Positions 1 to 34,776 of a DNA stretch of 64,000 bases are shown piece by piece (position 1 is the stretch's first letter; each line of letters starts with the position of its first letter). The stretch lies in assembly GCF_025143985.1 (NCBI RefSeq), contig NZ_CP083566.1, positions 1-64,000 on the forward strand, written 5' to 3'. This DNA comes from Sulfitobacter sp. W027 (GTDB taxonomy: Bacteria; Pseudomonadota; Alphaproteobacteria; Rhodobacterales; Rhodobacteraceae). Under the pieces are notes generated by a model that was given only the letters and a program-made list of their open reading frames with translations, searched no databases and was not told the origin of the DNA. The translations under genes and the position numbers were made by a program.

Positions 1-392
1 ATCTCTATGTCTGTGGCCCCAAGGGGTTGATCGAAGCGGTAAAGGCCAAAGCCGAAGCGGCGGGTATCGCGCCTGACCGCATCCATTTCGAACTCTTCGA
101 CGCGCCCCAAGAGCAAGCAGGCGACAGCGCCTTCGAGGTCGAGTTGGCCTCAAGCGGGGAGGTCTTCACCATCCCGCCCGGCCAATCCATCATCGACGTG
201 CTGGAGGCTGGGGGCGTCGATGTCATGTACGACTGCCAGCGCGGCGACTGTGGCATCTGCCAATGCGACGTCATCAGCGGCACCCCCGATCACCGCGACG
301 TGGTGCTGTCTGAGGCCGAACGCGCCGCAGGCAACGTCATGCAAATCTGCGTCAGCCGCGCCAAGTCACCGCGTCTTGTACTCGACATCTGA
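1..392 (+). CDS. Ferredoxin reductase of a Rieske oxygenase (5' truncated)
   Basis: Only the C-terminal ~129 residues are in the window; the reading frame is open from base 3 and the start lies upstream. The first visible residues contain CGPKG, the NAD-binding signature at the end of an FNR-type reductase domain. A plant-type [2Fe-2S] domain follows, with ligand Cys codons at bases 234, 249, 258 and 348 (C-x4-C-x2-C ... C). A flavin/NAD domain followed by a C-terminal ferredoxin is the class IA (phthalate dioxygenase reductase/VanB-like) arrangement, which passes electrons from NAD(P)H to a Rieske oxygenase. The oxygenase alpha subunit starts 11 bases downstream, so it is the probable partner. 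The family call is firm; the substrate pathway is inferred from neighbours. Confidence 0.88.
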   Translation, partial: LYVCGPKGLIEAVKAKAEAAGIAPDRIHFELFDAPQEQAGDSAFEVELASSGEVFTIPPGQSIIDVLEAGGVDVMYDCQRGDCGICQCDVISGTPDHRDVVLSEAERAAGNVMQICVSRAKSPRLVLDI

Positions 393-403
393 GGGAGGAA
401 CTT

Positions 404-1738
404 ATGGGACGTTACGACAGCCCGGCGGCACTGGCCGCCCTCGTGCAGCCACATCAGGTGCACCGCGATATCTACACCGATCAAGAGGTGTTCCAGCAGG
501 AGATGAAGCATCTCTTCGCCAATGCTTGGGTCTTTGTTGGCCATGAGAGCCAGACCCCGAACAAGGGCGATTATTTCAGCACCCACATAGGCACACAGCC
601 GGTCATTCAGGTGCGCCATTCGACGGGCGACATCCATGTCCTGCTAAACCGTTGCCCCCACAAAGGCACCAAGATCGTGATCGATAGGCAGGGCAACACC
701 GGCAAGTTCTTCCGCTGCCCCTATCATGCATGGAGCTTCAAAACCGACGGTTGCCTTTTGGCGATCCCGCTCAAAAAAGGCTACCAAAATACCGGGCTGG
801 AGGAGACCGACAGCGGCAAGGGCATGCGCAGCGTTGGCGATGTGAAGAACTACCGTGGCTTCATCTTCGCCCGGCTCGCCGACGAGGGCATGAGTTTCGA
901 AGAGTTCTTTGGCAAGAGCCTGTCGTCACTCGACAATATGGTTGACCGCTCCCCCGCCGGACGGCTCGAAGTCGTCGGCCCGCCGCTGCGCTACATGCAC
1001 CATTGCAACTGGAAGATGCTGGTCGAAAACCAGACCGACACCTGCCACCCGATGGTGGCCCACGAAAGCTCAGCCGGGACGGCGGTGAAGCTCTACGAAG
1101 AACTGGGCCTCCCCGAGGATGCGCCCAAACCCCCCGCGATGGAGATCATCGCCCCTTTCATGTCGCCTTACGAATTCTTCGAAGGCATGGGCATCCGCAC
1201 CTGGCCCAATGGCCACGGGCACACTGGCGTAAACCATTCGATCCACTCGGATTACGCCGCCATCCCCGGCTATTTCGAGGCGCTCTGCGAAAGCTATGGA
1301 GAGGAGAAAGCCAAGGCGATCTTGGATGAGAACCGCCACAATACGGTCTATTTCCCCAACATCATGATCAAAGGCCCGATCCAGCAGCTGCGCGTTTTCA
1401 TCCCCATCGCTGCCGATCGGACCGTGGTGGAAAGCTACATCTACCGCCTCGTCGATGCCCCGGATGAGCTGACCGCCCGCACCGCGATGTACAACCGCAT
1501 GATCAACGCGCCCACCTCCATCGTCGGCCACGACGATCTGGAAATGTACGAGCGCGCGCAGGAAGGGCTGATGGTCGACGGTTTGGAATGGGTGAACATC
1601 CAACGGCTGATCGAAGAGGACGAGGATTTCGAGGTCGAAGCGGTCGAAAACGGCACAACCGAGCGCCAAATGCGCAACCAATTTCACGCTTGGGTCAAGT
1701 TCATGACCATGTGCCAAAAGACGGAGGCGGCGGAATGA
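404..1738 (+). CDS. Rieske aromatic-ring hydroxylating oxygenase, alpha subunit
   Basis: This 444-residue protein is the catalytic subunit of a Rieske non-haem iron oxygenase that adds oxygen to an aromatic ring using electrons from the upstream reductase. The Rieske ligands are Cys84, His86, Cys105 and His108 (CPH ... CPYH). The mononuclear iron site is visible as Asp212, His215 and His220 in the segment NQTDTCHPMVAH. The start follows a GGAGG ribosome site. The last four bases overlap the beta subunit start (ATGA). Length and motif order are typical of benzoate/anthranilate-type alpha subunits. From the operon partners (CoA ligase, Cys-less thiolase, isatin hydrolase-type cyclase) the substrate may be indole-3-acetate or an oxindole derivative, but benzoate-like acids cannot be excluded from sequence alone. 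Confidence 0.93.
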   Translation: MGRYDSPAALAALVQPHQVHRDIYTDQEVFQQEMKHLFANAWVFVGHESQTPNKGDYFSTHIGTQPVIQVRHSTGDIHVLLNRCPHKGTKIVIDRQGNTGKFFRCPYHAWSFKTDGCLLAIPLKKGYQNTGLEETDSGKGMRSVGDVKNYRGFIFARLADEGMSFEEFFGKSLSSLDNMVDRSPAGRLEVVGPPLRYMHHCNWKMLVENQTDTCHPMVAHESSAGTAVKLYEELGLPEDAPKPPAMEIIAPFMSPYEFFEGMGIRTWPNGHGHTGVNHSIHSDYAAIPGYFEALCESYGEEKAKAILDENRHNTVYFPNIMIKGPIQQLRVFIPIAADRTVVESYIYRLVDAPDELTARTAMYNRMINAPTSIVGHDDLEMYERAQEGLMVDGLEWVNIQRLIEEDEDFEVEAVENGTTERQMRNQFHAWVKFMTMCQKTEAAE

Positions 1739-2214
1739 GTGTGACGCGCGAAACCCTGATCGACTTCATTTATGACGAAGTGCGCATGTTGGGCGAGGGG
1801 CGCTATACCGAATGGCTCGACCTCTGGCTGCCAGATGGGCATTACTGGATGCCGCTGGACTATCAACAGACCGATCCGATCAATCAGACCTCGTTGATGT
1901 ATGAGGATATGTTCATGCTGAAACTGCGCGTCGAACGGCTTAACGGCGCACGAACCTTCAGCCAAAAACCCAAAAGCCGCTGCCATCATGTGATCCAGCG
2001 TCCCTTCGTGGATGAGATGGACACGGAAGCCGGGCGTTTCGTCACGACCACCTTCATGCACTACGTCGAGACGCGGCTGGACGAGCAGCAACTGCTCGCC
2101 GTCACCGCGCGGCATGAGTTGGCGCTGGTCGAGGGGCGGTTGCGCATCGCCAACAAACGGGTCGATATCGTCAACTGCGACGCGGCCTTCCGCAACATCC
2201 AGTTGCTGCCATGA
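1735..2214 (+). CDS. Rieske aromatic-ring hydroxylating oxygenase, beta subunit
   Basis: This 159-residue protein is the small structural subunit of the oxygenase encoded just upstream. It has the NTF2-like cone fold pattern of the family, with an N-terminal helix (FIYDEVRMLGEGRYTEW), an aromatic-rich W-P-D-G-H-Y-W segment, and a C-terminal half typical of SnoaL/ring-hydroxylating beta subunits. The frame is open further upstream (to 1588), but the ATG at 1735 gives the expected length and overlaps the alpha stop codon, so it is the likely start. The end overlaps the CoA ligase start at 2211. Beta subunits of this family support hexamer assembly and do not carry metal. Confidence 0.9.
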   Translation: MSVTRETLIDFIYDEVRMLGEGRYTEWLDLWLPDGHYWMPLDYQQTDPINQTSLMYEDMFMLKLRVERLNGARTFSQKPKSRCHHVIQRPFVDEMDTEAGRFVTTTFMHYVETRLDEQQLLAVTARHELALVEGRLRIANKRVDIVNCDAAFRNIQLLP

Positions 2215-3836
2215 TCGGGGCGGAGACTGAGACGGTCTTCGCGGCCTTTGAAGACACCGCCGCGCGGTATCCCGAACGGGGATTTCTGAATGTCCTGCCG
2301 GAAACGGCGGACATCTACGGCATCGCGGCGGGGGAGGTGACTTATGCTGAAGCCGCGCGTGAGGTTGCGGCCCTGCGCAAGCGCATCTCGGCGGCGGGTT
2401 ATCTGCCCGGGCAACGCGTGATGCTGCTGATGGAGAACCGCCCTGCGTTTTTCCTTTGGTGGCTGGCGCTGAACGGCTTGGGCCTGTCGGTCGTGCCGGT
2501 GAACCCCGACCTGCGGGCGACGGAGCTCAGCTATATGATCGACCATGCCGAGCCGGTCTTGGCCATGGCGATCCCTGCACGGGGCAATGATCTGCGTGCG
2601 GCAGCAGAGCAAGCCGGGCGCGACATGCCCGTGATTGCACCGGGCGACCCTCTCCCTATGCCGGTCACGACCACGGCCATCGCGGCGAGGGAGGGCGGCG
2701 CGGAGGAGGCGGAAGCCGCACTTCTCTACACCTCCGGCACCACGGGCCAGCCCAAAGGCTGCATCTTGACCAACACCTATTTCCTAGATGCCGGACGCTG
2801 GTACGCAGACACCGGCGGGCTCTGCGCCCTGTCGCGAGACCGCGAGCGCATGATCACGCCGCTGCCGATCTTCCACATGAACGCGATGGCCTATTCCTTC
2901 ATGGCGATGATTGCCGTGGGCGGCTGCCTGACCGCGCTTGACCGCTTCCACCCGCGCAGTTGGTGGGCTTCGGTCCGGGCTTCGGGCGCGACCTGTCTGC
3001 ACTACCTCGGCGTGATGCCGTCGATGTTGATGGGGGCCGAAGCAAGCGAAACCGACCGTGACCATTCCGTGCGCTTTGGCTTCGGCGCGGGGGTGGACCC
3101 GAAATTGCACGCCGCCTTCGAGGCGCGTTTCGGTTTTCCGCTGGTCGAGGCTTGGGCTATGACCGAAACCGGCGCGGGTGCCGTGATCTGCGCCAATCGC
3201 GAACCGCGCCGCGTGGGGGAAAGCTGTCTCGGCGCGCCCGAAGGGGGGCTGGAGGTCCGGCTGCTCGACGATGTCGGGCAAGAGGCCGATCAAGGCGAGC
3301 TGCTGGTGCGCCGCGCCGGTGCCGACCCGCGGCGCGGGTTCTTCGCGGGCTACTTCAAGAATGCCGAAGCCACGGATGAGGCTTGGACAGATGGTTGGTT
3401 TCACACCGGCGACATCGTGCGCCGCGCCCCCGATGGTGCGATGTATTTCGTCGACCGCAAGAAAAACGTCATCCGTCGCTCGGGCGAAAACATCGCGGCG
3501 GTCGAGGTGGAATCGACCCTTATGCGCCACCCCGCCGTGGCCAGTGCCGCCGTGGCGGCCGTGCCCGATGCCGTGCGGGGGGATGAGGTTTTTGCCTGTA
3601 TCGTGCCGAAGGACGCAGGCGCTGACCCGGCAGCCCTTGCGCAGGACATCACCCGCTGGTGCCTCACCCAACTTGCCTATTACAAAGCCCCCGGCTTCAT
3701 TGCTTTTGTCGAAGCGCTGCCGCTGACCGCGACGCAGAAACTTCAACGCGGGGTGCTGAAAACGCTGGCCGCCGACCTGCTAAACGATCCCGCCACGCAG
3801 GACCTGCGCGGGATGAAGAAACGGACGGCGGCATGA
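2211..3836 (+). CDS. Acyl-CoA synthetase (AMP-forming)
   Basis: This 541-residue member of the ANL superfamily activates a carboxylic acid with ATP to an acyl-adenylate and then to the CoA thioester. The phosphate-binding motif YTSGTTGQPKG lies near residue 172. The A8 hinge region FHTGDIVRRAPDG is near residue 400, followed by VDRKKNVIRRSGENI. The A10 catalytic Lys (TATQKLQRG) is near residue 510. It overlaps both neighbours by ATGA, so translation is coupled. Its place after a ring oxygenase and before a thiolase-type enzyme implies that the oxygenated product is made into a CoA ester before side-chain cleavage. The substrate is not determined by the sequence. Confidence 0.92.
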   Translation: MIGAETETVFAAFEDTAARYPERGFLNVLPETADIYGIAAGEVTYAEAAREVAALRKRISAAGYLPGQRVMLLMENRPAFFLWWLALNGLGLSVVPVNPDLRATELSYMIDHAEPVLAMAIPARGNDLRAAAEQAGRDMPVIAPGDPLPMPVTTTAIAAREGGAEEAEAALLYTSGTTGQPKGCILTNTYFLDAGRWYADTGGLCALSRDRERMITPLPIFHMNAMAYSFMAMIAVGGCLTALDRFHPRSWWASVRASGATCLHYLGVMPSMLMGAEASETDRDHSVRFGFGAGVDPKLHAAFEARFGFPLVEAWAMTETGAGAVICANREPRRVGESCLGAPEGGLEVRLLDDVGQEADQGELLVRRAGADPRRGFFAGYFKNAEATDEAWTDGWFHTGDIVRRAPDGAMYFVDRKKNVIRRSGENIAAVEVESTLMRHPAVASAAVAAVPDAVRGDEVFACIVPKDAGADPAALAQDITRWCLTQLAYYKAPGFIAFVEALPLTATQKLQRGVLKTLAADLLNDPATQDLRGMKKRTAA

Positions 3837-5002
3837 GGCGCAGGGGCTACGACCGCGTCGTCCTCGCGGTGCCGACCTCGGTGCCCTACGCCCGCTATAG
3901 CAATGAGACCGCCCATTGGTGGATCGCCCGCGCGCTGCGCGCGATGCTGGGCAAGGCCGGGATCGCGCCGGGCGAGCTAGACGGTTTCTCGGTCTCCAGC
4001 TTCTCGCTCGCGCCCGACACGCCGGTCGGGCTGACCCAGCATCTGGGGCTTAGTCCACGTTGGCTTGATACCGTGCCCACGGGCGGGGCCAGCGGGGTGG
4101 TCGCCCTGCGCCGTGCGGCGCGGGCGGTGCAAGCGGGCGACGTGGATGTGGTCGCCTGTGTGGCGGGAGACGCGAACCGGATCGACAGCTTTCGCAGCCT
4201 GCTCAGCGGCTTCTCGCGCTTTTCGATGGATGCGACCTTTCCCTATGGCTTCGGCGGCCCCAACGCGAGTTTCGCCCTGCTGATGGACCGCTATATGCAG
4301 GAATACGGCGCCACGCGAGAGGACTTTGGCCGCATCGCCGTGGCCCAACGGGCCAATGCGCTGCACTACCCCAATGCACTGATGAAGACCCCGCTCACCC
4401 TCGACCAATACCTTGACGCGCGGATGATCTCTGACCCTATCGCTCTTTTCGACTGTGTGATGCCCTGCGCCGGGGCCGAGGCGTTTCTGGTCATGCACGA
4501 AGACGAAGCCCTGCGCCGCGACCTGCCCTTTGCGCGGATCAGCGGCACAATCGAGCGGCACAACGCCTATCCCGAAGACCCGATGCAACTGCGCGGCGGC
4601 TGGGGCGTGGATATCAGTGAACTCTACGACATGGCGGGTCATGGGCCGGAGGATGTCGACCTGCTGCAAACCTATGACGACTATCCGGTGATCTCGATGA
4701 TGCAGTTCGAAGACCTTGGATTTTGCGCGAAGGGGGAGGGGGCGGGATTTGTCCACCAGCGCGATCTGACCATCACCGGGGACTTCCCGCATAACACCTC
4801 TGGCGGGCAGCTGTCGGTTGGCCAAGCCGGTGCTGCGGGCGGCTATCTGGGACTGGTTGAGGCGATCCGGCAGGTGACGGGGCAGGCTGAAGGCACGCAG
4901 GTGGCGAACGCCCGGCGGGCGTTGGTTTCCGGCTTTGGCATGATCAACTACGACCGGGGCGTCTGTTCCGCGGCGGCGATTATCGAAGGGGGCGAAGCAT
5001 GA
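3833..5002 (+). CDS. Thiolase-superfamily protein without the catalytic Cys (putative acyl-CoA retro-aldolase)
   Basis: This 389-residue protein has the SCP2/nonspecific lipid-transfer thiolase fold. The frame is open from 3659, but the ATG at 3833 overlaps the ligase stop and gives the right N-terminus. Where thiolases have the nucleophilic Cys (family pattern N-C-S/A-T/S-G) this protein reads PTGGASG, with Gly85 at the Cys position. The C-terminal GHP motif is VGQAG, with Gln331 replacing His. The remaining scaffold is intact (YDDYPVISMMQFEDLGF, NTSGG). Known relatives lacking the Cys and paired with a DUF35 protein, such as actinobacterial Ltp2, are retro-aldolases that split a beta-hydroxyacyl-CoA into a ketone plus a short acyl-CoA. 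The next gene carries that DUF35 domain. Aldolase activity is therefore favoured over thiolysis, but this is inference. Confidence 0.85.
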   Translation: MRRRGYDRVVLAVPTSVPYARYSNETAHWWIARALRAMLGKAGIAPGELDGFSVSSFSLAPDTPVGLTQHLGLSPRWLDTVPTGGASGVVALRRAARAVQAGDVDVVACVAGDANRIDSFRSLLSGFSRFSMDATFPYGFGGPNASFALLMDRYMQEYGATREDFGRIAVAQRANALHYPNALMKTPLTLDQYLDARMISDPIALFDCVMPCAGAEAFLVMHEDEALRRDLPFARISGTIERHNAYPEDPMQLRGGWGVDISELYDMAGHGPEDVDLLQTYDDYPVISMMQFEDLGFCAKGEGAGFVHQRDLTITGDFPHNTSGGQLSVGQAGAAGGYLGLVEAIRQVTGQAEGTQVANARRALVSGFGMINYDRGVCSAAAIIEGGEA

Positions 5003-6246
5003 CCGAACCCCTGAAGACGCCGCAAAAGAAGAACCCGCAAAAGCGCAGCACCGTCCCGACCCTGCCGCCTGCACAACGCTCACGCGCCGCACTCGGGGTG
5101 GCGATTGCCGCAGGGCGCGGGCAGTTTGCGCTGCAACACTGCGCCGACTGCGGGGCGGTGCAATATCCGCCGCGTGATGCCTGCTGCAAATGCCTGTCGG
5201 TAGCACTCAATTGGCGCGAGACTGATCCGACTGGCGAGGTGTTGGCCGAAACGACAATCCGGGTCTCACCCGACCCCTACTTCCGAGAACGACTGCCTTG
5301 GCGGATCGGCACGGTGCAACTCGCCGCCGGGCCGGTGGCGGTGTGCCATTTACACGGCGATGTCGGGCGCGGCGATCCCGTCCGTTTGGTGCTCAAGTTG
5401 GACAGGGCCGGGCAGGGGGTCATGGTGGCCTTGCCGCAAAAGGAAAGCGAATTCATGCAAGACGATCCCATGCTGCGCGCGATGTCGAGTGACCCAAAGC
5501 ACCGCCGGGTGCTGATCACCGATGCCCGCTCCCCCTTAGCCCCGCCACTGGCCCAAGCGCTTCTGAAAGCGGGGGCGGCGCAGATCTTCCTTGGTGAGCC
5601 GGAGCACTGGCGGCGATGGGACGGCCGCGCGGTGTTAGAGGAGATGGAGAACGTCAGCCTCATGCCGCTTGACGTGACCGATGCCGCCTCCGTTTCGCGC
5701 CTCGCGGCAGAGATCGGCGGCAAGGTCGATATCCTGATTAACACCGCGCAGTTCATCCGTCCCGGCGGGGTGCTGGGCGGCGATACGATCTCTGCCCGCG
5801 ACGGGATGGAGACCAATGTGCTGGGCCTGTTGCGGCTCGCGCAGGGCTTTGGCCCGGCGATGGCGTCGCGTACAGCGGACGGGGTAAATTCAGCGGTGGC
5901 CTGGGTGAACCTTTTGTCAGTGGGGGCGCTGGCACCTGCAGCCGGATTTGGCGGCTTTGATGCCTCGCAGGCGGCGGCGCGGTCGCTCAGCCAGACTCTT
6001 CGCGCAGAGTTTTCTGGTTCCGGATTGCGGGTGATGAATGTCTATACCGGGCCTGTGGATGATGAATGGCACCAGCCTTTGCCGCCGCCCAAAGTCTCCC
6101 CCCGCGTGCTGGCGCGGACGGTGGTGAGTGGCTTGATCAACGGGCTGGAGGAGGTTGCTTGCGGTGATGTGGCCAAAGATGCTCTGGCCCGCTGGCTGGA
6201 CGATCCGGCGCTGATGGAACGCGAGATGCGGGGGAACGGGTCATGA
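4999..6246 (+). CDS. DUF35 zinc-ribbon/OB-fold protein fused to a degenerate short-chain dehydrogenase domain
   Basis: This is a 415-residue two-domain protein. Residues ~30-150 form a DUF35 domain: a zinc ribbon with Cys48, Cys51, Cys62 and Cys65, then an OB-fold. DUF35 proteins bind thiolase-fold partners and help accept acyl-CoA, and the preceding gene is such a partner. Residues ~168-400 resemble an SDR Rossmann domain, but the active site is broken. The dinucleotide loop reads TDARSPLA instead of TGxxxGIG, and the NNAG motif reads INTAQ. The catalytic Tyr and Lys are Phe320 and Gln324 (GFDASQ), while Ser307 is kept. The SDR part is thus probably structural or CoA-binding rather than a dehydrogenase. 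The first 30 residues are Lys/Pro-rich and probably disordered. Overlaps the cyclase gene by ATGA. Confidence 0.85.
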   Translation: MTEPLKTPQKKNPQKRSTVPTLPPAQRSRAALGVAIAAGRGQFALQHCADCGAVQYPPRDACCKCLSVALNWRETDPTGEVLAETTIRVSPDPYFRERLPWRIGTVQLAAGPVAVCHLHGDVGRGDPVRLVLKLDRAGQGVMVALPQKESEFMQDDPMLRAMSSDPKHRRVLITDARSPLAPPLAQALLKAGAAQIFLGEPEHWRRWDGRAVLEEMENVSLMPLDVTDAASVSRLAAEIGGKVDILINTAQFIRPGGVLGGDTISARDGMETNVLGLLRLAQGFGPAMASRTADGVNSAVAWVNLLSVGALAPAAGFGGFDASQAAARSLSQTLRAEFSGSGLRVMNVYTGPVDDEWHQPLPPPKVSPRVLARTVVSGLINGLEEVACGDVAKDALARWLDDPALMEREMRGNGS

Positions 6247-7025
6247 GCGATGCAATCACAGCACTGGTCGATGCGCTGGCAAGCGGCGCGGCGCGGGTCA
6301 TCGATCTGACCCATCGGCTGGACCCTGATTTCCCGGTCATCGTCTTGCCGCCAGAGTTCGGCCAATGTGCGCGCTTCCGGATGGAAGAGGTCTCGGCCTA
6401 TGACCATCGCGGCCCGGCGTGGAAGTGGCATAACCTGACGCTTAATGAACACACCGGCACCCATTTCGACGCGCCGATCCACTGGGTTTCGGGCAGGGAC
6501 GTGGCGAATGGTGCAGTCGATGAAATCCCACCCGAGGCCTTCATCGGCCCGGTGGTTGTGATCGACTGCTCAGAGGGGGTACGGCAGGACGATGACTTTG
6601 AACTAACGCCCGAGATCATCCGCGATTGGGAAGCCAAGCATGGCACGATCCCGGCAGACGTTTGGGTGCTTATGCGCACCGACTGGTCAAAGCGTAGCGG
6701 CGCGGATTACCTGAACATGCGCGAGGACGGTGCCCATTCGCCAGGCCCCACACCCTCTGCCATCGAACTGCTGCTAGAGCGCGGCATTCGCGGCTTTGGC
6801 ACCGAGACCGTCGGCACCGACGCGGGGCAGGGGATGCATTACGACCCGCCATTCCCGGCGCACTACCTGCTGCATGGGGCGGGCAAATACGGGCTGCAAT
6901 GTCTGTGCAACCTCGACCAACTGCCGCCCACGGGGGCCATGCTGATTGCACCGCCGCTCAAGATTAAAGGCGGGACCGGCAGCCCCTTGCGGGTGCTGGC
7001 GCTGATACCGGGAGAGAGACCATGA
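6243..7025 (+). CDS. Cyclase-family metal hydrolase, isatin hydrolase/kynurenine formamidase type (copy 1)
   Basis: This 260-residue member of the cyclase (Cyclase_2) superfamily hydrolyses cyclic or N-acyl amides using Mn or Zn. The metal motif HxGTHxDxPxH is complete: His70, His74, Asp76 and His80. The C-terminal block with TDAGQ and PPFPAHYLLH resembles isatin hydrolases, which open the lactam ring of isatin to isatinate. A paralogue with the same layout is encoded at 29801-30592. It sits in the oxygenase operon with 4-bp overlaps on both sides. Isatin or a related oxindole is the favoured substrate; N-formylkynurenine or another lactam is possible. Confidence 0.85.
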   Translation: MSDAITALVDALASGAARVIDLTHRLDPDFPVIVLPPEFGQCARFRMEEVSAYDHRGPAWKWHNLTLNEHTGTHFDAPIHWVSGRDVANGAVDEIPPEAFIGPVVVIDCSEGVRQDDDFELTPEIIRDWEAKHGTIPADVWVLMRTDWSKRSGADYLNMREDGAHSPGPTPSAIELLLERGIRGFGTETVGTDAGQGMHYDPPFPAHYLLHGAGKYGLQCLCNLDQLPPTGAMLIAPPLKIKGGTGSPLRVLALIPGERP

Positions 7026-7747
7026 GCCATTACACCGCCGTCATCACCGGGGGCAGCAAGGGCATCGGTGCCGATTTGGCGCAGCGTCTGCTGGAGCGCG
7101 GCTATCGGGTGGTTTCCATCGCGCGCGGCAAGCCGGAATGGGAGGCCGAGGGCGTTGAGCATATCGAAGCCGACCTGCTCGATCCCGCCTCCGTCGCTGC
7201 CGTGGCCGCCGACATCGCCGCGCGTTATGACGTGACCCATCTGGTGCATAACGCCGGGTTGATCTGGCCCAATCTCATCGAAGACGCCAAGCCCGAGGAC
7301 ATCACTGGACTTGCCCAACTGCACCTCGGCTCGGCCCTGACGCTGCTGCAAGCCTTCCTGCCCGCCATGAAAGAACGCGGTTTTGGCCGGGTGATGTTCA
7401 ACGCCTCGCGCGCCGCCTTGGGCGCCCCGACGCGCACCGCCTATTCGGCGTCGAAAGCCGGGATGATCGGCATGGCGCGCACCTGGGCGCTGGAGCTTGC
7501 GCCGCATGGGATCACCGTAAATGTCGTGGCCCCCGGCCCGGTGCAGACTGACAACTTCTGGGGCATCATCCCGAAAGAAAGCGAACGCGAAGCGGAGCTT
7601 GCAAAACGCATCCCGGTGGGCCGTTTGGGGCAGGTGGAGGACGTGACCAACGCCTTTCTCTTCTTCTGCGATCCGGCCAGTAGTTTCGTCACCGGCCAGA
7701 CGCTTTTCGTTTGTGGCGGTTCGAGCATCGGGACGCTGACGCTCTGA
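7022..7747 (+). CDS. Short-chain dehydrogenase/reductase
   Basis: This 241-residue classical SDR is complete. It has the dinucleotide motif TGGSKGIG near residue 9, HNAG near residue 78, and the catalytic YSASK with the upstream Ser in NASRAALG. The product-side loop PGPVQTD and C-terminal VTGQTLFVCGG are typical of 3-oxoacyl reductase-like SDRs. It overlaps the cyclase gene and is the last gene of the operon, since the next gene is convergent only 9 bases away. In an indole-acetate route it could interconvert a hydroxy and keto oxindole (for example dioxindole and isatin), but the substrate cannot be read from sequence. Its intact active site contrasts with the degenerate SDR domain two genes upstream. 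Confidence 0.9.
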   Translation: MSHYTAVITGGSKGIGADLAQRLLERGYRVVSIARGKPEWEAEGVEHIEADLLDPASVAAVAADIAARYDVTHLVHNAGLIWPNLIEDAKPEDITGLAQLHLGSALTLLQAFLPAMKERGFGRVMFNASRAALGAPTRTAYSASKAGMIGMARTWALELAPHGITVNVVAPGPVQTDNFWGIIPKESEREAELAKRIPVGRLGQVEDVTNAFLFFCDPASSFVTGQTLFVCGGSSIGTLTL

Positions 7748-7756
7748 CGCTGATCC

Positions 7757-8629
7757 TCAGTCCTTGCGGAAATGCTGAACCAGCTCAGGCACATAGGCGT
7801 CGCCCGCGCCCTTTTCGACGACCTTAGACAAGGCGCTGTAAACCCCGTCGGCAATCTCGACCTGCGCGCCGGCTTGGGCGGACATCTGCCGATAATAGTC
7901 GAAATCCTTCAACGCGTTGCTGATCGCAAAGGGCAGCGCCTTGCGGTCGCCGTTTACGATGAAGGGCGACAGCCGATCAAGCGCGACACTGGCCCCGCCG
8001 CCACCCGCCAAGACATCCACGAAACTCTGCGGATCAATACCCGCATCGGCCGATTGCGCGGCGGCTTCGGCGAGCAGCGACATAAAGCCAACCGAAACGT
8101 AGTTGTGCAGCAGTTTCAGGCGGTGGCCTGCGCTGACCTCACCCACATGTTTCACCTCTTCGGTGAAGGAGGCGAGAACCGGAGAGACCTTCTCAACAAC
8201 AGCGGCATCACCCCCGACCAGCAAGTTCAGCTTCCCCTCATGGGCGAATTGCGCGGTCCGGGTCATCGGTGCGTCAACGAAATCGCCCCCCGCCGCCTTG
8301 ACCGCTTCGGCCATCTTCAGCGTCGAGGCGGGCAAGGAGGTTGAGCAATCGACGACTACCGTGCTGGGCTTCAGCCTCGCGATTACGCCGCTCTCGCCAG
8401 TCAGGATCCCTTCGACCTGGGGCGAGCCGGTAACGCAGAGGATGATCACATCTGAGGCTGCCGCAAGGTCCGATAGACTGTCGAAGGCCGTGGCTCCAAG
8501 CCCGTCCAACTCATCGGTCGGCTGGTTGCCGGGGTGATCGAAATAGCCAAGCGCAAAACCCCCGCGCCGCATCACGTTGCGGGCAATTCCGTGGCCCATC
8601 AGGCCGACACCGATCATACCGATTTTCAT
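7757..8629 (-). CDS. NAD-binding beta-hydroxyacid dehydrogenase (3-hydroxyisobutyrate dehydrogenase family)
   Basis: The 290-residue protein begins MKIGMIGVGLMGHGIARN, a Rossmann GxGxMG motif. The family substrate motif is DAPMTR (DxPVxG-like), and the catalytic Lys lies in GHRLKLLHNY. The open frame extends to 8857, but the ATG at 8629 has a GGAGGAAA ribosome site and starts exactly at the Rossmann fold. Family members oxidise 3-hydroxyisobutyrate, tartronate semialdehyde-type or other beta-hydroxyacids. It is divergent from the aldehyde dehydrogenase at 8810, a pairing that fits oxidation of a hydroxyacid to a semialdehyde and then to an acid. The DAPMTR variant suggests a substrate other than 3-hydroxyisobutyrate. 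Confidence 0.87.
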   Translation of the reverse strand: MKIGMIGVGLMGHGIARNVMRRGGFALGYFDHPGNQPTDELDGLGATAFDSLSDLAAASDVIILCVTGSPQVEGILTGESGVIARLKPSTVVVDCSTSLPASTLKMAEAVKAAGGDFVDAPMTRTAQFAHEGKLNLLVGGDAAVVEKVSPVLASFTEEVKHVGEVSAGHRLKLLHNYVSVGFMSLLAEAAAQSADAGIDPQSFVDVLAGGGGASVALDRLSPFIVNGDRKALPFAISNALKDFDYYRQMSAQAGAQVEIADGVYSALSKVVEKGAGDAYVPELVQHFRKD

Positions 8630-8809
8630 GGATTTTCCTCCGCTTGCCACCGCCACTCCTGCGCGCGGTTCCCTTGGGGAAAGTTCTACCGTGCGGCCCG
8701 TCACGGCGCAACGCGGGTGGGGCGGATTTTCTCGGCCAAACAGGGCTTTGTATATTTGAAACCGACACGGCGCTTGATAGGAATGGCGCATTGATTGAAT
8801 GAGGCTAAT

Positions 8810-13304: not shown

Positions 13305-14210
13305 TCAGATCTTGCTGACGATATAATCGGGCGCGATACCAGAGTCCTTGATCGCCGCGCTTACATCCAAACCTAAGAGAGAGCCGTGCCCGGTGACTAA
13401 TGCCGTGGCAAAACCCGCCTGCGCACTGCCAAGGATATCGGTGTGAAGCGTGTCGCCCACCATTAGCACGCGAGCAGGGTCGATGGCGCTGCATCGCGCG
13501 AGAGCGAGATCGAAAATATCCGGGAAAGGCTTTCCGCAGAAGTGCACCGAGGCGCCGGTTGCGTCGATCAGGCCATGCGCGAACCATCCGGGTTCGAGCG
13601 ACAGACCATCCTCGCGCGGGGCGACGAGATCGGGGTTGCCGACGAAAACGGGCCGGGAGTGGCGGGCTAGGCTCGCTTCCAACATCTCTTGCCGCGCAGC
13701 CGTCCATCCGTCCGCCCCGACCAGAAGGAATCCTTCGGCCCGATCATAGACCGCTGGGTCATCGGCCAGAACGGTCGCGCCAAGGTCAGCAATTTCGCCC
13801 ATGTCTTTATCGGGGTTCAACATCACGCCCCAGTGGCGCGTAGGCTCTTGCGCAACGTGGTGCAAGAGCGCTTCGCGGCTGGTGACCACCTCATCAAGCG
13901 TGAAATCAAAGCCAAGGCGGGCGTAGCGGTCCATCATATGCGCCTTGGGGTAGGCGGCGGAGTTGCTAACGACCATGACCGATTTGCCCATATCGCGCAG
14001 GGCGGCGATGGTCTGCGCGGCTCCATCAATGGCAGTCTCGCCGACGTTAAGCACGCCGTAGGCGTCGAACAAGATAAGGTCATAGGGAGCGACGATATCG
14101 AGAAAGCGTGCCGCAACTCTTCCCGCGCCTTGCGTATCGCAGGCGGGCAAGCGGGGGCGCAGGCGCTGGTATTCGGCCAGCGCCCGCGCGGGGTCAATCG
14201 CGGCGCTCAC
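13305..14210 (-). CDS. HAD-superfamily class IIA phosphatase (TIGR01459-like)
   Basis: This 301-residue protein has the HAD nucleophile motif as LILFDAYGVLN, the Ser motif VVSNSA, and the Lys/Asp motifs CGKPFPDIFDLALAR and MVGDTLHTDILG. These place it with NagD/4-nitrophenylphosphatase-like class IIA enzymes. The GTG start at 14210 overlaps the PhnE stop codon (GTGA), although the frame is open further upstream. It is the last gene of the phosphonate-type uptake operon, which suggests that it removes phosphate from an imported or derived phosphoester. No C-P lyase gene is present nearby. Confidence 0.85.
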   Translation of the reverse strand: MSAAIDPARALAEYQRLRPRLPACDTQGAGRVAARFLDIVAPYDLILFDAYGVLNVGETAIDGAAQTIAALRDMGKSVMVVSNSAAYPKAHMMDRYARLGFDFTLDEVVTSREALLHHVAQEPTRHWGVMLNPDKDMGEIADLGATVLADDPAVYDRAEGFLLVGADGWTAARQEMLEASLARHSRPVFVGNPDLVAPREDGLSLEPGWFAHGLIDATGASVHFCGKPFPDIFDLALARCSAIDPARVLMVGDTLHTDILGSAQAGFATALVTGHGSLLGLDVSAAIKDSGIAPDYIVSKI

Positions 14211-16586: not shown

Positions 16587-16603
16587 GTAGGATACCTTGT
16601 GTG

Positions 16604-16629
16604 CAGGGCCGACTTGTTTGCCGGCCCTG
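16604..16629 (-). terminator. GC hairpin between phnD and phnC
   Basis: An 8-bp inverted repeat (CAGGGCCG at 16604-16611 and CGGCCCTG at 16622-16629) lies in the 54-base gap between phnD and phnC. It has no T run, so it more likely stabilises the phnD transcript end or gives weak attenuation. Confidence 0.4.
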
Positions 16630-16640
16630 ACGTTAAACGA

Positions 16641-17733: not shown

Positions 17734-17751
17734 TTGTCATATAGCTGTAAC
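17734..17751 (+). promoter_or_regulatory. PHO-box-like direct repeat upstream of phnD
   Basis: The plus strand reads TTGTCAT-ATAG-CTGTAAC, two 7-base units 11 bases apart, close to the PhoB consensus CTGTCAT-N4-CTGTCAT. It lies 113 bases upstream of phnD, but the repeat is on the strand opposite to the phnD transcript. It suggests control by phosphate starvation; the orientation is unusual. Confidence 0.5.
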
Positions 17752-17819
17752 AACCCACCCCAAAGCAAGGCAAGCGTCACCGCGATTGAACGTAACATAA
17801 GATAGGGCGCGCGTGCCGC

Positions 17820-29800: not shown

Positions 29801-30592
29801 ATGAGTGCAACAGATTTAATGCGTGATTTCGGGGCGATGCTCGCCTCTGGCGGGGTCGAAGTGGTGGACTGTTCGGGCGTTTTGGGGCCAGATACGCCGA
29901 TCCTGCAACTGCCAGCCGATTTTGCCAAGCCGACACCGAAAGTCGAAATCCATAAGATCAGCGAATATGACGAAGACGGCCCGTTCTTTGCGTGGAACTG
30001 GATGGTCTTGGGCGAACATTCCGGCACCCATTTCGACGCGCCGCACCATTGGATCACCGGCAAGGATTACGAAGACGGGTTCACAGATACGCTTGACGTG
30101 CAACGCCTCGTCGCGCCGGTCAACGTGATCGACTGCTCGCAGCAATCTCAAGAAGACCCCGACTTTTTGCTCGACGCCAAAGGCATTAAGGAATGGGAGG
30201 CCGAGTATGGCGAGATTGGCGAGGGCGAATGGGTCGTCATGCGCACCGATTGGGACAGCCGTGTAAATGACGAAGCGCGGTTCCTCAACGCGGATGAAAC
30301 CGGACCCCACAGCCCCGGACCGACCCCGGATGCGATCGAGTATCTGATGAGCAAAAAGATCGTCGGTTGGGGCACCCAATGCATCGGCACCGATGCGGGT
30401 CAGGCCGGCGGGATGGAGCCGCCGTACCCGGCGCATAACCTGCTGCATAAGAACAACTGTTTCGGTCTGGCAAGCCTTGCCAATCTCGACAAACTGCCGC
30501 CCAAGGGCGCGATCCTGATTGCGGCGCCGCTGAAGATTAAGAATGGCACCGGCAGCCCCATTCGGGCGCTGGCGCTGGTGCCGAAGGGCTGA
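29801..30592 (+). CDS. Isatin hydrolase-type cyclase-family metal hydrolase (copy 2)
   Basis: This 263-residue enzyme carries the complete metal motif HSGTHFDAPHH with His73, His77, Asp79 and His83, the positions used for Mn in characterised isatin hydrolase of Labrenzia. The C-terminal block TDAGQAGGMEPPYPAHNLLH also matches that enzyme as I recall it. Isatin hydrolase opens isatin to isatinate. A TTG at 29783 is in frame, but the ATG at 29801 with GGGGAG upstream is preferred. The operon continues with a MarR regulator and an indolepyruvate oxidoreductase-type pair, which fits a route using isatinate, a 2-oxoacid. Copy 1 at 6243 is clearly diverged. Confidence 0.88.
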   Translation: MSATDLMRDFGAMLASGGVEVVDCSGVLGPDTPILQLPADFAKPTPKVEIHKISEYDEDGPFFAWNWMVLGEHSGTHFDAPHHWITGKDYEDGFTDTLDVQRLVAPVNVIDCSQQSQEDPDFLLDAKGIKEWEAEYGEIGEGEWVVMRTDWDSRVNDEARFLNADETGPHSPGPTPDAIEYLMSKKIVGWGTQCIGTDAGQAGGMEPPYPAHNLLHKNNCFGLASLANLDKLPPKGAILIAAPLKIKNGTGSPIRALALVPKG

Positions 30593-30595
30593 TCG

Positions 30596-31075
30596 GTGAC
30601 AGATACACCACTCACCAAGGCGGAGAATGCGCCGCTCGATCAGATGGGGCTCGATAACTTCGCGCCCTATCTGATGAACCGGATCATGGGGCGGTATAAT
30701 GCCGCCCTGTCAGCCGAGATGGCGGCGCTTGGCTTGACCACGCCACAGATGCGCTCCTTGGCGGTGCTTTCGGTCACAGATGGGATCTTGATCCGTGAAT
30801 TGGCCGTCTATGCGGTGGTTCAGCAATCTACGCTGAGCCGCGCGCTGGACGCGCTGGTGCGCGACGGTTTGGTGCGGCGTGAGACTGACGCAACCGACAG
30901 CCGCGCCACCCGCGTCTATCTGACCGACAAGGGGCGAGAGGCCTATGCAAGGCTCTGGCCGCATATGGCCGAGGCCTATGGCGCGATGTTCAAGGGCATC
31001 GACGCCGCCGAGAAAGAGGCCTTTGTGGCCACGCTGCGCACCATGCTGCGCAACATCCGAAAACACGATTTTTAA
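30596..31075 (+). CDS. MarR-family transcriptional regulator
   Basis: This 159-residue winged-helix protein starts with GTG three bases after the cyclase stop. The DNA-binding part is LTTPQMRSLAVLSV ... VVQQSTLSRALDALVRDGLV, and the wing DSRATRVYLTDKG is typical. MarR proteins usually bind aromatic carboxylates, and MarR regulators (IacR type) control known indole-acetate catabolic loci. Its position inside the operon suggests autoregulation and control of the cyclase and oxidoreductase genes. Confidence 0.92.
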   Translation: MTDTPLTKAENAPLDQMGLDNFAPYLMNRIMGRYNAALSAEMAALGLTTPQMRSLAVLSVTDGILIRELAVYAVVQQSTLSRALDALVRDGLVRRETDATDSRATRVYLTDKGREAYARLWPHMAEAYGAMFKGIDAAEKEAFVATLRTMLRNIRKHDF

Positions 31076-31084
31076 GAGGGTCTC

Positions 31085-33235
31085 ATGGCCGAGCGTTCGT
31101 TTAAGGCAGAGGTGGAACACCTGCGCAAAGGAGACGGTGACGTCTTCACAGGTGAGGGTATCCTCGCGATTACCAAAGCCCTTCTGGAAAACGGGGTCGG
31201 CTATGTGGGCGGCTATCAGGGTGCGCCGATCTCGCATCTGATGGACGTGCTGGCGGATGCCGAAGAGCTCATGGCCGAACTTGGCGTGCGGTTTGAGGCG
31301 AATGCGTCTGAGGCGGCGGCGGCGGCAATGCTGGCGGCGAGCGTGCATTACCCCATTCGTGGCGCGGTGACTTTTAAGGGGCCGGTGGGGGTTAACGTGG
31401 CTTCTGATGCGCTGGCCAACCTCAGTTCTTCGGGCGTCACCGGTGGCGCGCTGGTGATCGTGGGCGAGGACTACGGCGAAGGCTCGTCGATCATGCAGGA
31501 ACGCAGCCACGGCTTTGCCATGAAATCGCAGTTCTGGATGCTCGACCCGCGCCCGAACCTGCCTTGCATTACCAAAGCGGTGAAAGACGGGTTTGAACTT
31601 TCGGAGGCCAGCAACACCCCCGTGATGCTCATGGTGCGCATCCGGTCCTGCCATGTGACCGGCAGTTTCGAGACCCGTGACAACCAGCGTCCGCCGCTCA
31701 CCGTGGCCGAAGCGGCCGCCAACCCGCGCTCGGATTTCAACCGTGTGGTGCTGCCGCCGATGTCCTATCTGCATGAGAAGGACAAGATCGAGAACCGCTG
31801 GCCTGCGGCGGAAAAGTTCATCCGCGACAATAAGCTAAACGAGTTCTTCGGCCCGGAAGAAGCCCCATTGGGCATCGTTGTCCAAGGCGGCATGTACAAC
31901 TCCGTCATCCGTGCCCTGCAACGGCTGGGCCTTGCGGATATCCACGGCCAGACCGAGGTGCCGCTCTATGTGCTGAACGTCACCTATCCGCTGCTGCGCG
32001 ATGAGTTCGACGACTTCTGCAAAGGCAAGGATCACGTGTTGGTGGTCGAAGAGGGCCAGCCGGATCATATCGAACAGCAGCTTGGCTCCTACCTCTACAA
32101 ACTCGAACGTAAGGTGAAGCTGCACGGCAAAGATGTGTTGCCGATGGCGGGGGAATACACAGGTCAGGTGCTGCTCGACGGTGTGACGGATTTCCTCAAG
32201 GTCGCGGCGCCCGAGATGCTGCCCGGCAAGGTCCGCGCCCCCAACGCCGAAGCGCCCGCAATCCCCGATCTGTCCGACACCGTGCCGATCCGCCCGCCCG
32301 GTTTCTGCACCGGCTGCCCGGAACGCCCGATCTTTGCCGCGATGAAACTGACCGAGCAGGAGTTGGGCAAACACCAGATCACTGGCGACATTGGCTGCCA
32401 CCTGTTTGGCTGTCTGCCGCCCTTTGAAATTGGCGGCTCGACCATGGGCTACGGCCTCGGCCCCGCCTCTAACGCGGCCTTTGACGGGGGTGGCGACAAA
32501 CGGGTGATCTCGATTCTTGGGGATGGCGGTTTCTGGCATAACGGGTTGTCGACTTCGATCGGGAACATGGTGTTCAACAAGTCCGACAGCGTCGCAGTGA
32601 TCGTCGACAACTACTATTCCGCCGCCACGGGCGGGCAGGACGTGATGTCCTCGCGGGCGCATAACGACACCAAGAGCACCAACAATCCGATCTCCAAGGC
32701 GCTCAAGGGCGTGGGCGTCGAGTGGGTGCGCCAGATCGACCGGACCTATGACGTGGGCAAGCTGCGTGAGGTGCTGCGCGAGGCGCTGACCACCGATTAT
32801 AAGGGGCCGAAGGTCATCGTGGCGTCTTCGGAATGTATGCTGAACAAGCAGCGCCGTGAGAAGCCCCTGCGCAACAAGGCGATCAAGGAAGGCCGCCGCA
32901 TGGAGGTGCCGCGCTTTGGCGTCGATGCGGATGTTTGCACCGGGGATCATGCCTGCATCCGGCTCTCGGGCTGCCCGTCGCTGTCGCTCAAGCGGCTGGA
33001 CGATCCACTGCGCGACGATCCGGTGGCGCATATCGATCAGACCTGTGTGGGCTGCGGCAACTGCGGCGAAGTGGCCGATACGGCGGTGCTCTGCCCGTCG
33101 TTCTATCAAGCCGATGTGGTGCATAACCCCACCCGTTTCGAGCGGTGGCGTGCCGAGAAAACCAGCCAGATCATCTCTTGGCTACAAAGACGGCGCGACG
33201 CAAAGCGGCTGCGCAGCGAAGGAGTGACGACGTGA
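31085..33235 (+). CDS. Indolepyruvate:ferredoxin oxidoreductase-type alpha subunit (TPP-dependent)
   Basis: This 716-residue protein is an IorA-like 2-oxoacid:ferredoxin oxidoreductase. The N-terminal half is the pyruvate-oxidoreductase domain I/II. The TPP domain contains CTGCPERPIFAA (near residue 408) and LGDGGFWHNGLSTSIGN with DNYYSAATGGQ. The C-terminus (from ~residue 615) is a modified ferredoxin domain. Its second cluster motif, CVGCGNC ... CP, is normal, but the first reads CTGDHACIRLSGC, without the usual CxxCxxC spacing. It would convert an aryl 2-oxoacid plus CoA to an acyl-CoA, CO2 and reduced ferredoxin. With an isatin hydrolase in the same operon, isatinate (2-aminophenylglyoxylate) is an attractive substrate, giving anthraniloyl-CoA. 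RBS GAGGG. Confidence 0.9.
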   Translation: MAERSFKAEVEHLRKGDGDVFTGEGILAITKALLENGVGYVGGYQGAPISHLMDVLADAEELMAELGVRFEANASEAAAAAMLAASVHYPIRGAVTFKGPVGVNVASDALANLSSSGVTGGALVIVGEDYGEGSSIMQERSHGFAMKSQFWMLDPRPNLPCITKAVKDGFELSEASNTPVMLMVRIRSCHVTGSFETRDNQRPPLTVAEAAANPRSDFNRVVLPPMSYLHEKDKIENRWPAAEKFIRDNKLNEFFGPEEAPLGIVVQGGMYNSVIRALQRLGLADIHGQTEVPLYVLNVTYPLLRDEFDDFCKGKDHVLVVEEGQPDHIEQQLGSYLYKLERKVKLHGKDVLPMAGEYTGQVLLDGVTDFLKVAAPEMLPGKVRAPNAEAPAIPDLSDTVPIRPPGFCTGCPERPIFAAMKLTEQELGKHQITGDIGCHLFGCLPPFEIGGSTMGYGLGPASNAAFDGGGDKRVISILGDGGFWHNGLSTSIGNMVFNKSDSVAVIVDNYYSAATGGQDVMSSRAHNDTKSTNNPISKALKGVGVEWVRQIDRTYDVGKLREVLREALTTDYKGPKVIVASSECMLNKQRREKPLRNKAIKEGRRMEVPRFGVDADVCTGDHACIRLSGCPSLSLKRLDDPLRDDPVAHIDQTCVGCGNCGEVADTAVLCPSFYQADVVHNPTRFERWRAEKTSQIISWLQRRRDAKRLRSEGVTT

Positions 33236-34776
33236 ATCTGGTTCTGCCGCAAAAGACACCCGACGCGCGTGTCGGCGAAATCACCAAACTCGCGGTCATG
33301 GCCGTGGGCGGGCAGGGCGGTGGCGTCTTGACTGGCTGGATTGAATCCATGGCCCGGGCCGAAGGCTATGTCTGTCAGGCGACCTCGGTCGCCGGCGTGG
33401 CGCAGCGCACCGGGGCCACGATCTATTACGTCGAAATGGCCCCGAAAAGCGCGTTGGAGCCGGTCTTTGCCCTCGCCCCTGCGGCGGGCGATGTCGACGT
33501 GTTGATCGCGGCTGAGATGATGGAGGTTGGCCGCGCCGTGATGCGCGGTTTCGTGACGCCAGACCGCACCACGCTGATCGGCTCGACCCACCGCGCCCTT
33601 GCGGTGAGCGAGAAGATGGCGCCCGGCGATGGCATTGCCGATGCGGATGAGGTTCGCGCCGCTGCCGAAATCGCCGCGCAGAAACTGGTGTTGGAGGATA
33701 TGGAAGGGCTGGCCGTCGGCGCAGGCTCGGTCATTTCCGCTTCGCTCTTTGGCGCTTTGGCCGGGTCCGGGGCGCTGCCGTTCCGGCGGGAGGCCTATGA
33801 GGACGCGATCCGCGCAGGGGGCAAGGGGGTGGAGCCTTCGTTGCGTGCCTTCGCCGTGGGCTTTGATGCAGCGCAGGGCCGTTTGCCCAACAGCGCGCCC
33901 GCCACGATAGACGAGCCTGAAACTCCCTTCCGCCTCGCCGGACCAGAGGCGTTGCAAAGCCAATGGGACGCCCTGGTCGCCCGCGCCGACGCGCTGCCTG
34001 AAGCGGTGCATGATTTGGCATTCGCGGGCCTGTCTAAAGTGGTAAACTTCCAAGACTGCGCCTACGGCACGCTCTATCTGGATCGGCTCGATACCGTGTT
34101 GGCCCGTGACAGCGCCGCGCAGGACTGGCGGCTCTCGGCGGAAGCGGCGAAATACATCGCCAATGCCATGGCCTATGACGACATCATCCGCGTTGCTGAC
34201 CTGAAAACCCGCGCGCCGCGCTTTACCCATATCCGGCAGGAAATGCGCGCAGGCGATGCGAACCTGATGCAGTTGACCGAATACTTCCACCCCCGCGCCG
34301 AAGAAATCGCAGGGCTGATGCCTGCGCGTCTTGGGGCCAAGGTGGAGGCGAGCGACAAATGGATGACCCGGCTGAACCGTTGGTTCGACAAGGGCCGTCG
34401 CCTGCGCACGGATCGCTTGCCCGCGTTCTTAATGTTGCACGTGCTAGGGGGGCTCAAGAGTTACCGTTTGAAAACCCACCGCCATGCCATCGAAGTGGCT
34501 CATCTTGAGGATTGGCTGTTGCGCTGTCTGGCCGAGGTCGAGGCCGATTACGACGTCGCGGTCGAACTGGTGAAATGCCGCCGGCTTATCAAAGGCTATT
34601 CCGACACCCACGCGCGGGGATTGGGGAAGTTCGACAAGGTGATGGATGCCGCCGACTTGCTGCGCGGGCGCGAAGATGCGGCGCAATGGATTGCGCGTCT
34701 GCGGGAGGCGGCCTTGCAAGATGCCGAAGGCGAAGCGCTTGATGGGGCCATCGCGACAGTGCGTTCTTTCGTTTAG
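33232..34776 (+). CDS. Indolepyruvate:ferredoxin oxidoreductase-type beta subunit with DUF6537 extension
   Basis: The start is the GTG at 33232, which overlaps the alpha stop (GTGA) and follows GAAGGAG; the ATG at 33145 lies inside the alpha gene. The 514-residue protein begins with the gamma/IorB domain (VGGQGGGVLTGWIESMA; SVAGVAQRTGATIYYVEM). The C-terminal ~280 residues form the helical DUF6537 extension seen in IorB homologues of aerobic proteobacteria. It completes the oxidoreductase with the alpha protein. The usual archaeal enzyme lacks the extension; its role is not known. Confidence 0.88.
   Translation: MNLVLPQKTPDARVGEITKLAVMAVGGQGGGVLTGWIESMARAEGYVCQATSVAGVAQRTGATIYYVEMAPKSALEPVFALAPAAGDVDVLIAAEMMEVGRAVMRGFVTPDRTTLIGSTHRALAVSEKMAPGDGIADADEVRAAAEIAAQKLVLEDMEGLAVGAGSVISASLFGALAGSGALPFRREAYEDAIRAGGKGVEPSLRAFAVGFDAAQGRLPNSAPATIDEPETPFRLAGPEALQSQWDALVARADALPEAVHDLAFAGLSKVVNFQDCAYGTLYLDRLDTVLARDSAAQDWRLSAEAAKYIANAMAYDDIIRVADLKTRAPRFTHIRQEMRAGDANLMQLTEYFHPRAEEIAGLMPARLGAKVEASDKWMTRLNRWFDKGRRLRTDRLPAFLMLHVLGGLKSYRLKTHRHAIEVAHLEDWLLRCLAEVEADYDVAVELVKCRRLIKGYSDTHARGLGKFDKVMDAADLLRGREDAAQWIARLREAALQDAEGEALDGAIATVRSFV

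Follow-up and report, generated by a model that had tools for sequence, protein, structure and literature searches.

An iad-type auxin locus on a Sulfitobacter plasmid, with a putative retro-aldolase and a candidate isatinate oxidoreductase

The iad locus of Variovorax encodes a reductase (iadC), a Rieske oxygenase pair (iadDE), a synthetase (iadF), and the products of iadG, iadH, iadI, and iadJ, and its Rieske enzyme is reported to be a monooxygenase, with the short-chain dehydrogenase/reductase (SDR) IadJ completing oxidation to dioxindole-3-acetate (PMC12633357). A route from indole-3-acetate (IAA) through isatin and isatinate to anthranilate, control by MarR regulators, and the presence of iadA and iadB in iad loci have also been published (PMC12633357; PMC9613470). 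The latter genes (iotA/iorB, for an indolepyruvate ferredoxin oxidoreductase) are described as exclusive markers of iad loci, and all tested strains with IAA loci, Ruegeria pomeroyi among them, degraded IAA (PMC9613470). We analyzed the first 64 kb (the window) of NZ_CP083566.1 (contig C3), a 215,221-bp contig of Sulfitobacter sp. W027 whose nearest plasmid matches were from Sulfitobacter. A first-pass annotation of this DNA had proposed that two gene clusters, A and B, together fit a CoA-dependent route from IAA to anthraniloyl-CoA. Novelty cannot be claimed for the iad locus type, the isatin route, MarR control, or iadA/iadB, all described in the papers above. Two of the proposals gained support: IadG may be a retro-aldolase and IadAB an isatinate oxidoreductase, and the comparative evidence supports both strongly enough for direct testing. 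In the open full-text literature, a scope with subscription journals mostly outside it, we found no assignment of IadG as an aldolase or of IadAB as an isatinate oxidoreductase.

Judged from sequence, cluster A is iadC-J, an auxin locus already known, with iadC split at the contig end. Every gene named in the first-pass annotation of both clusters was an open frame at its place, and cluster A agreed gene for gene with the Variovorax layout. The solved Variovorax IadDE structures were the top matches to IadD and IadE (9o71; 7yls/8h2t), IadD was the only PF00848 match in the host genome, and a megaplasmid of R. pomeroyi DSS-3 carried the identical eight-gene set in identical order. Given this correspondence, the solved IadDE matches, and the R. 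pomeroyi counterpart, neither the substrate nor the isatin route is new. The marker genes iadA and iadB were also present on this plasmid, at a distance of 22 kb. The best solved match of the MarR protein encoded beside iadC was 3cdh, a R. pomeroyi MarR (E 8.4e-46) that is the tightest IAA binder among the MarR proteins measured (PMC9613470); together with the IadD match, this agrees with IAA as the predicted substrate. The eight genes lie on a single strand; the iadC stop is 11 bases 5' of iadD, and from iadD onward every start overlaps the preceding stop by 4 bases (with the iadG start taken as 3833). The first-pass annotation had confined cluster A to positions 1-7747, and although its genes there stood, the operon runs beyond the window: joining the ends of C3 gave a single 324-residue iadC frame from 214639 to 392, as expected if the plasmid is circular, and a divergent MarR gene lay upstream of iadC, outside the window, as did a TRAP transporter identified by alignment with the Sulfitobacter dubius plasmid L029.

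The predicted function of the plasmid is thus aerobic IAA catabolism of the iad type, and the locus is an ordinary, well-kept family member on a marine plasmid. It has the orthologous iadC-J genes of published iad systems in unchanged order, together with iadA/iadB, predicted MarR control, and the predicted isatin route, but differs in having iadAB grouped with an isatin hydrolase B gene and a separate MarR gene in a second cluster at a distance of 22 kb, a TRAP transporter upstream of iadC, a marine plasmid as its setting, and a chromosomal gene for 2-aminobenzoyl-CoA monooxygenase/reductase (ACMR). Comparison of positions 1-9000 of the window with plasmid records gave 25 matches, 12 of which, all from Sulfitobacter, covered at least 80% at 88-91% identity. 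In a genome scan with IadD, for which the best 80 of 479 relatives were kept as loci, iadD-J was complete within 10 kb in at least 62 of the 80 and a divergent MarR gene was present in at least 71, with iadA/iadB in at least 11 and 2-aminobenzoyl-CoA cluster genes in at least 6; these are lower bounds because several of the loci are truncated at contig ends. The Sulfitobacter plasmids and the 62 complete loci show that cluster A is not a chance arrangement. Six loci (L043, L047, L068, L071, L083, and L090) had iadDE without an adjoining F-G-H-I block; neighbors were listed for three loci lacking adjoining iadF-I (L043, L068, and L109). The idea that iadG/H/I are absent from Azospirillum thermophilum was discarded when matches were found on the plasmid that carries its other iad genes, ~15-25 kb from them and with iadG in two pieces. 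A 55% identical IadD relative on a Pantoea sp. plasmid lies with genes for an FAD oxidoreductase, an amidase, and an aromatic amino acid transporter, and is perhaps an oxygenase for another indole.

IadG has a thiolase fold and was described in the first-pass annotation as a thiolase without its cysteine, correctly, as glycine occupies the nucleophile position. In a residue alignment of 71 IadG orthologues (1 of 72 was dropped beforehand by a length filter), all 71 had this glycine, all had YDDY in place of HDxF, all kept both glutamines of GGQxxxGQ, and all had glutamine in place of the thiolase GHP histidine. Neither the cysteine nor the GHP histidine of the SCP2/ketothiolase signature was therefore retained, and a working thiolase was rejected on these grounds. 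Both by sequence and by predicted fold, the best match was the CtSal aldolase 9myr. Sal Tyr302, Gln347, and Gln352 fall at the tyrosine of YDDY and at both GGQxxxGQ glutamines of IadG, the glutamines being mapped by alignment and spacing. Sal Cys304 and Ltp2 Tyr344 were not kept, with aspartate in YDDY and glutamine at the second place in 71 of 71 sequences, so IadG may work like Sal or Ltp2 but is neither. The steroid side-chain aldolase systems Sal (CtSal-CtShy DUF35) and Ltp2-ChsH2 resemble IadG-IadH in the thiolase fold, glycine for the nucleophilic cysteine, a catalytic tyrosine in YDxx, a DUF35 partner gene, and both Sal-type glutamines. They differ in having YDCY or YDHF where IadG has YDDY, in the fusion of the Sal partner to a MaoC hydratase rather than to a degenerate SDR domain, and in substrate, which for IadG would be an oxindole. 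The IadG model had a mean predicted local distance difference test score (pLDDT) of 74.9, with values below 50 at residues 115-140, 196-213, and 324-332; because the last of these segments is part of the active-site loop, no geometry was taken from the model. A Sal/Ltp2-like retro-aldolase is the best reading of IadG, in preference to the published "ketothiolase", and the residues conserved in all orthologues, with Sal as the best solved relative, support the earlier suggestion that the side chain is lost by retro-aldol cleavage and not by thiolysis.

The partner gene iadH adjoins iadG and encodes a DUF35-SDR fusion. An active SDR carries the Tyr-x-x-x-Lys and TGxxxGxG motifs. In 68 IadH sequences the zinc cysteines were always kept, the SDR lysine and the first glycine of TGxxxGxG were never present, and the tyrosine was found in 5; in the control, IadJ orthologues had the tyrosine in 65 of 69 and the lysine in 66 of 69. 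Length removed 3 of 71 IadH and 5 of 74 IadJ sequences from these counts, and L137 IadH was left out for a wrong frame. With L132, L135, and L168 inspected by eye, an intact Tyr-Lys pair was found in none of 71 IadH sequences, which led us to reject a working dehydrogenase. The L132 protein, with phenylalanine for the tyrosine, comes from a locus whose IadD closely resembles the solved Variovorax protein (970 bits over 429 residues). The top 50 hits of a fold search with IadH were all SDR-type structures and were uninformative about the DUF35 part. We propose that IadH is a DUF35 partner of IadG with a degenerate SDR domain.

Cluster B comprises genes for isatin hydrolase B, a second MarR, IadA, and IadB. 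Both isatin hydrolases of the window carry the HxG[T/A]HxDxPxH signature with GLQC or GLAS; among 70 IadI orthologues, 67 had the metal motif, 63 had GLQC, and 2 had GLAS. The two Labrenzia aggregata isatin hydrolases, A and B, have the same metal-site motif, with GLQC (as in cluster A) and GLAS (as in cluster B), respectively, and, as in the host, both types occur in one genome; we saw no difference between them and the host proteins, which appear to be ordinary members. Isatin hydrolysis, as first proposed, is thus the predicted activity of IadI, whose best match is isatin hydrolase A. A third PF04199 protein is encoded at position 2767138 of contig C1 among what look by eye to be acyl-CoA-type genes. 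The cluster B MarR had a different best solved match (3cjn) from the iadC-side protein, and a single MarR controlling both clusters was consequently not supported. A different ligand, perhaps isatin or isatinate, probably controls cluster B.

IadB scored over its curated cut-off and IadA under that of TIGR03336 (Table 1), and a sequence search with IadA against solved structures gave no match. IadAB resembles indolepyruvate:ferredoxin oxidoreductase (IorAB) in having a thiamine pyrophosphate (TPP) domain and a POR domain with DUF6537, but its alpha subunit lies below the curated cut-off and its gene neighbors suggest isatinate, an aryl 2-oxoacid, as the substrate. We looked for co-occurrence in 384 genomes of the host family, about one per genus, with counts that ignore phylogeny: 34 had iadD (E up to 1e-100), 90 had IorB, and 137 had ACMR. 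IorB matches were split by bits per position, at a line drawn after the scores were seen, into high and low groups of 81 and 9 genomes, respectively. High-group IorB was present in 34 of 34 iadD genomes and in 47 of 350 genomes without iadD. ACMR accompanied it in 73 of 81 genomes, against 64 of 303 others, and the association held among iadD-negative genomes (43 of 47 versus 64 of 303); in the low group, ACMR was found in 1 of 9 genomes and iadD in none. With 20 kb as the limit, 19 genomes had IorB near ACMR (13 of these lacked iadD), 10 of the 34 iadD genomes had IorB near iadD, and 4 had iadD near ACMR.

Gene neighborhoods were called by tblastn with identity and coverage thresholds in 51 high-group loci that were chosen rather than random (19 with IorB near ACMR, 20 further iadD-negative loci, and 12 of the 24 iadD-positive genomes in which IorB was not within 20 kb of iadD). 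An isatin hydrolase gene adjoined iorAB in 26 of 33 iadD-negative loci, in 7 of 18 iadD-positive loci, for which IadI is available as a substitute, and in 0 of 8 low-group loci; two of the seven iadD-negative loci lacking it (L164 and L165) were cut close to the genes. A recurrent order was isatin hydrolase B, an amine-oxidase-like flavoprotein gene (20 of 39 loci; Pfam domain call from L151 only), MarR, iadA, and iadB, often accompanied by the ACMR cluster. In locus L057, the ACMR cluster, iadC-J, and iadAB lay within 21 kb, although the ACMR match was not one open frame, and in A. thermophilum iadA-B-C-D-E-F-J ran directly into ACMR. This gene association makes it most likely that IadAB oxidizes isatinate to anthraniloyl-CoA, in line with the ferredoxin-linked step suggested at first pass. 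That annotation had also joined both clusters into one IAA route; the genes do co-occur, but with its own MarR and with no IadD match in 47 of 81 high-group genomes, cluster B makes more sense as a general isatin module. In seven iadD-negative loci (L150-L152, L154, L157, L159, and L160), two flavoproteins of ~520 residues, which in L151 are amine-oxidase-like by Pfam, flank isatin hydrolase B; these could make isatin from another indole and so mark a separate pathway.

The host has one chromosomal ACMR over the cut-off (NF006101, 1304 versus 1078 bits), a full-length FAD-monooxygenase and old-yellow-enzyme fusion that matches the 2-aminobenzoyl-CoA monooxygenase/reductase / salicylyl-CoA 5-hydroxylase family along its whole length, with anthraniloyl- or salicylyl-CoA as the predicted substrate. 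Its gene is distant from iad, whereas some relatives have it beside iadAB. The surrounding stretch (C1:1939000-1958999) also encodes kynureninase, a CoA ligase, an acyl-CoA dehydrogenase, a hydratase, and an SDR, and is a probable tryptophan-kynurenine-anthraniloyl-CoA route. Because ACMR lies near genes for kynureninase and a CoA ligase, and IadD is the sole ring-hydroxylating alpha subunit of the genome, anthraniloyl-CoA would be a usable product in this host.

These observations suggest the following scheme, which we consider probable as a whole. IadCDE would oxygenate IAA and IadJ would finish the oxidation to dioxindole-3-acetate, by analogy to both published Variovorax steps. The early oxygenation of the first-pass step order stands, but that order did not provide for a monooxygenase completed by IadJ, by which the last gene of cluster A serves an early step. 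IadF would then form the CoA thioester, the activation that had been anticipated. IadG, bound to IadH through the DUF35 domain of the latter, would catalyze retro-aldol cleavage of the 3-hydroxy thioester to isatin and acetyl-CoA, with Tyr281, the first tyrosine of YDDY, as the base and Asp283, the second aspartate of the motif, replacing the catalytic cysteine of Sal, as the residues and relatives of IadG suggest; residues are numbered from the Met at 3833. Isatin would be hydrolyzed to isatinate by IadI or the cluster B hydrolase, both close relatives of enzymes of known activity. IadAB would oxidatively decarboxylate isatinate to anthraniloyl-CoA with electrons passing to ferredoxin, and the chromosomal ACMR cluster would take over from there, making cluster B a separately controlled isatin module recruited to the IAA pathway. 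In its broader form, to which we incline slightly, a widespread aerobic module (isatin hydrolase, MarR, 2-oxoacid:ferredoxin oxidoreductase, and 2-aminobenzoyl-CoA monooxygenase/reductase) would conserve isatinate decarboxylation as anthraniloyl-CoA and spare the ATP of a CoA ligase; a thiolase-fold retro-aldolase of a third kind, with YDDY and a dead-SDR DUF35 partner, would feed this module in auxin degraders.

Published data bear on this scheme in both directions. In Bradyrhizobium, IAA raises iorB 7.6-fold and iorA 30.7-fold (PMC3788728). In Variovorax, metabolites of isatinate mass and of formula C7H7NO accumulate only in iadC-K2 overexpression strains, which were built in the HS33 deletion (PMC12633357); the deleted range includes iadA (gene 72; PMC9613470) and, by its position between iadA and iadC (gene 70; PMC10374108), iadB as well. 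Build-up of isatinate mass is as expected from loss of an isatinate-consuming enzyme in a background without iadA. Two points weigh against the scheme: overexpression alone could also explain this build-up, and anthranilate is still formed in Variovorax strains without iadAB (PMC12633357), which means that a second route exists.

The published alternative for the side chain, with IadG as a ketothiolase and IadH as an alcohol dehydrogenase that remove it reductively to give dioxindole before IadI acts, gains from the accumulation of C8H7NO2, the formula of dioxindole, in an iadI deletion and an iadCDEFGH_JK2 strain (PMC12633357). It is nonetheless unlikely, given replacement of both thiolase residues in every IadG, the loss of the SDR pair in every IadH, including L132, and the chemical consideration that the proposed substrate is a tertiary alcohol and not a 3-ketoacyl-CoA, leaving thiolysis without a carbonyl to attack. 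Far less probable still is a Rieske enzyme for a benzoate-like acid, with cluster A serving something other than IAA. The best NCBIfam names are indeed benzoate, phenylpropionate, and anthranilate dioxygenases, but all six scores were far under their cut-offs while the IadD structures matched at E ~1e-169, on which contrast we rejected a benzoate-type enzyme; moreover, the operon order is that of a proven locus, and R. pomeroyi DSS-3, whose species is among the IAA-degrading strains (PMC9613470), has the same eight genes.

For cluster B, the family names of its oxidoreductase (IOR_alpha, below cut-off, and the indolepyruvate oxidoreductase beta family) would fit action on indole-3-pyruvate or another arylpyruvate, carrying tryptophan carbon towards IAA with no relation to isatinate. 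We rejected this reading, to which we accord a low probability, because the same IorB subfamily accompanies isatin hydrolase and ACMR in genomes that gave no IadD match; the low-scoring IorB proteins, perhaps the arylpyruvate enzymes, mostly lack both. Alternatively, anthranilate could be the true end product, formed by oxidation of 2-aminobenzaldehyde derived from isatinate, with cluster B an unrelated cluster for isatin detoxification. C7H7NO and anthranilate in Variovorax strains without iadAB (PMC12633357) and the two isatin hydrolases of the host are consistent with this possibility, but retention of high-group IorB in all iadD genomes, its location within 20 kb of iadD in 10 of them, and the induction of iorAB by IAA in Bradyrhizobium (PMC3788728) make it improbable.

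If the retro-aldolase and isatinate oxidoreductase assignments are true, they would close two open iad steps, loss of the acetyl side chain and the role of iadA/iadB, revise the published "reductive" step, define substrates for assay, and link the catabolism of auxin, isatin, and anthranilate via a single CoA thioester. Marine, alga-associated Sulfitobacter relatives, a group cited for auxin production (PMC9873259), are in addition probable auxin consumers.

Table 1. Genes of the two clusters in the window, with proposed roles and supporting matches
Feature	Position	Strand	Basis
iadC, oxygenase reductase, 3' end (2Fe-2S)	1..392	+	Fer2 domain; 5' end at 214639-215221 of contig C3
iadD, Rieske oxygenase alpha subunit	404..1738	+	best solved match 9o71, Variovorax IadD, E 2.2e-169
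iadE, Rieske oxygenase beta subunit	1735..2214	+	best solved match 7yls/8h2t/9o71, E 1.1e-43
iadF, acyl-CoA synthetase, proposed dioxindole-3-acetate:CoA ligase	2211..3836	+	AMP-binding, AMP-binding_C
iadG, thiolase-fold protein, putative retro-aldolase	3833..5002	+	YDDY, Gly at nucleophilic Cys position; best match 9myr
iadH, DUF35 (zinc ribbon + OB fold)-degenerate SDR fusion, proposed IadG partner	4999..6246	+	zf-ChsH2, OB_ChsH2_C
iadI, isatin hydrolase A type (GLQC)	6243..7025	+	best solved match 5nnb/5nna, E 6.4e-146
iadJ, SDR dehydrogenase, proposed dioxindole-3-acetate former	7022..7747	+	SDR domains; orthologue motifs; role from PMC12633357
isatin hydrolase B type (GLAS)	29801..30592	+	cyclase domain; HxGTHxDxPxH and GLAS
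MarR of cluster B, distinct from iadC-side MarR	30596..31075	+	best solved match 3cjn, E 1.5e-53
iadA, 2-oxoacid:ferredoxin oxidoreductase alpha (TPP), 716 aa, proposed isatinate oxidoreductase	31085..33235	+	IOR_alpha (TIGR03336) 285 bits, cut-off 651; TPP_enzyme_C
iadB, oxidoreductase beta subunit (POR + DUF6537), 514 aa	33232..34776	+	NF006179 657 bits, cut-off 348

Directly 3' of cluster A, at positions 7757-10306, are a 3-hydroxyisobutyrate-dehydrogenase-like gene and an aldehyde dehydrogenase gene, which are also present in the S. dubius plasmid. Between the two clusters, positions 14207-17798 hold probable phosphonate-type ABC transporter genes, a call based upon position and open reading frame size relative to the phnE-phnE-phnC-phnD genes annotated in that same plasmid.

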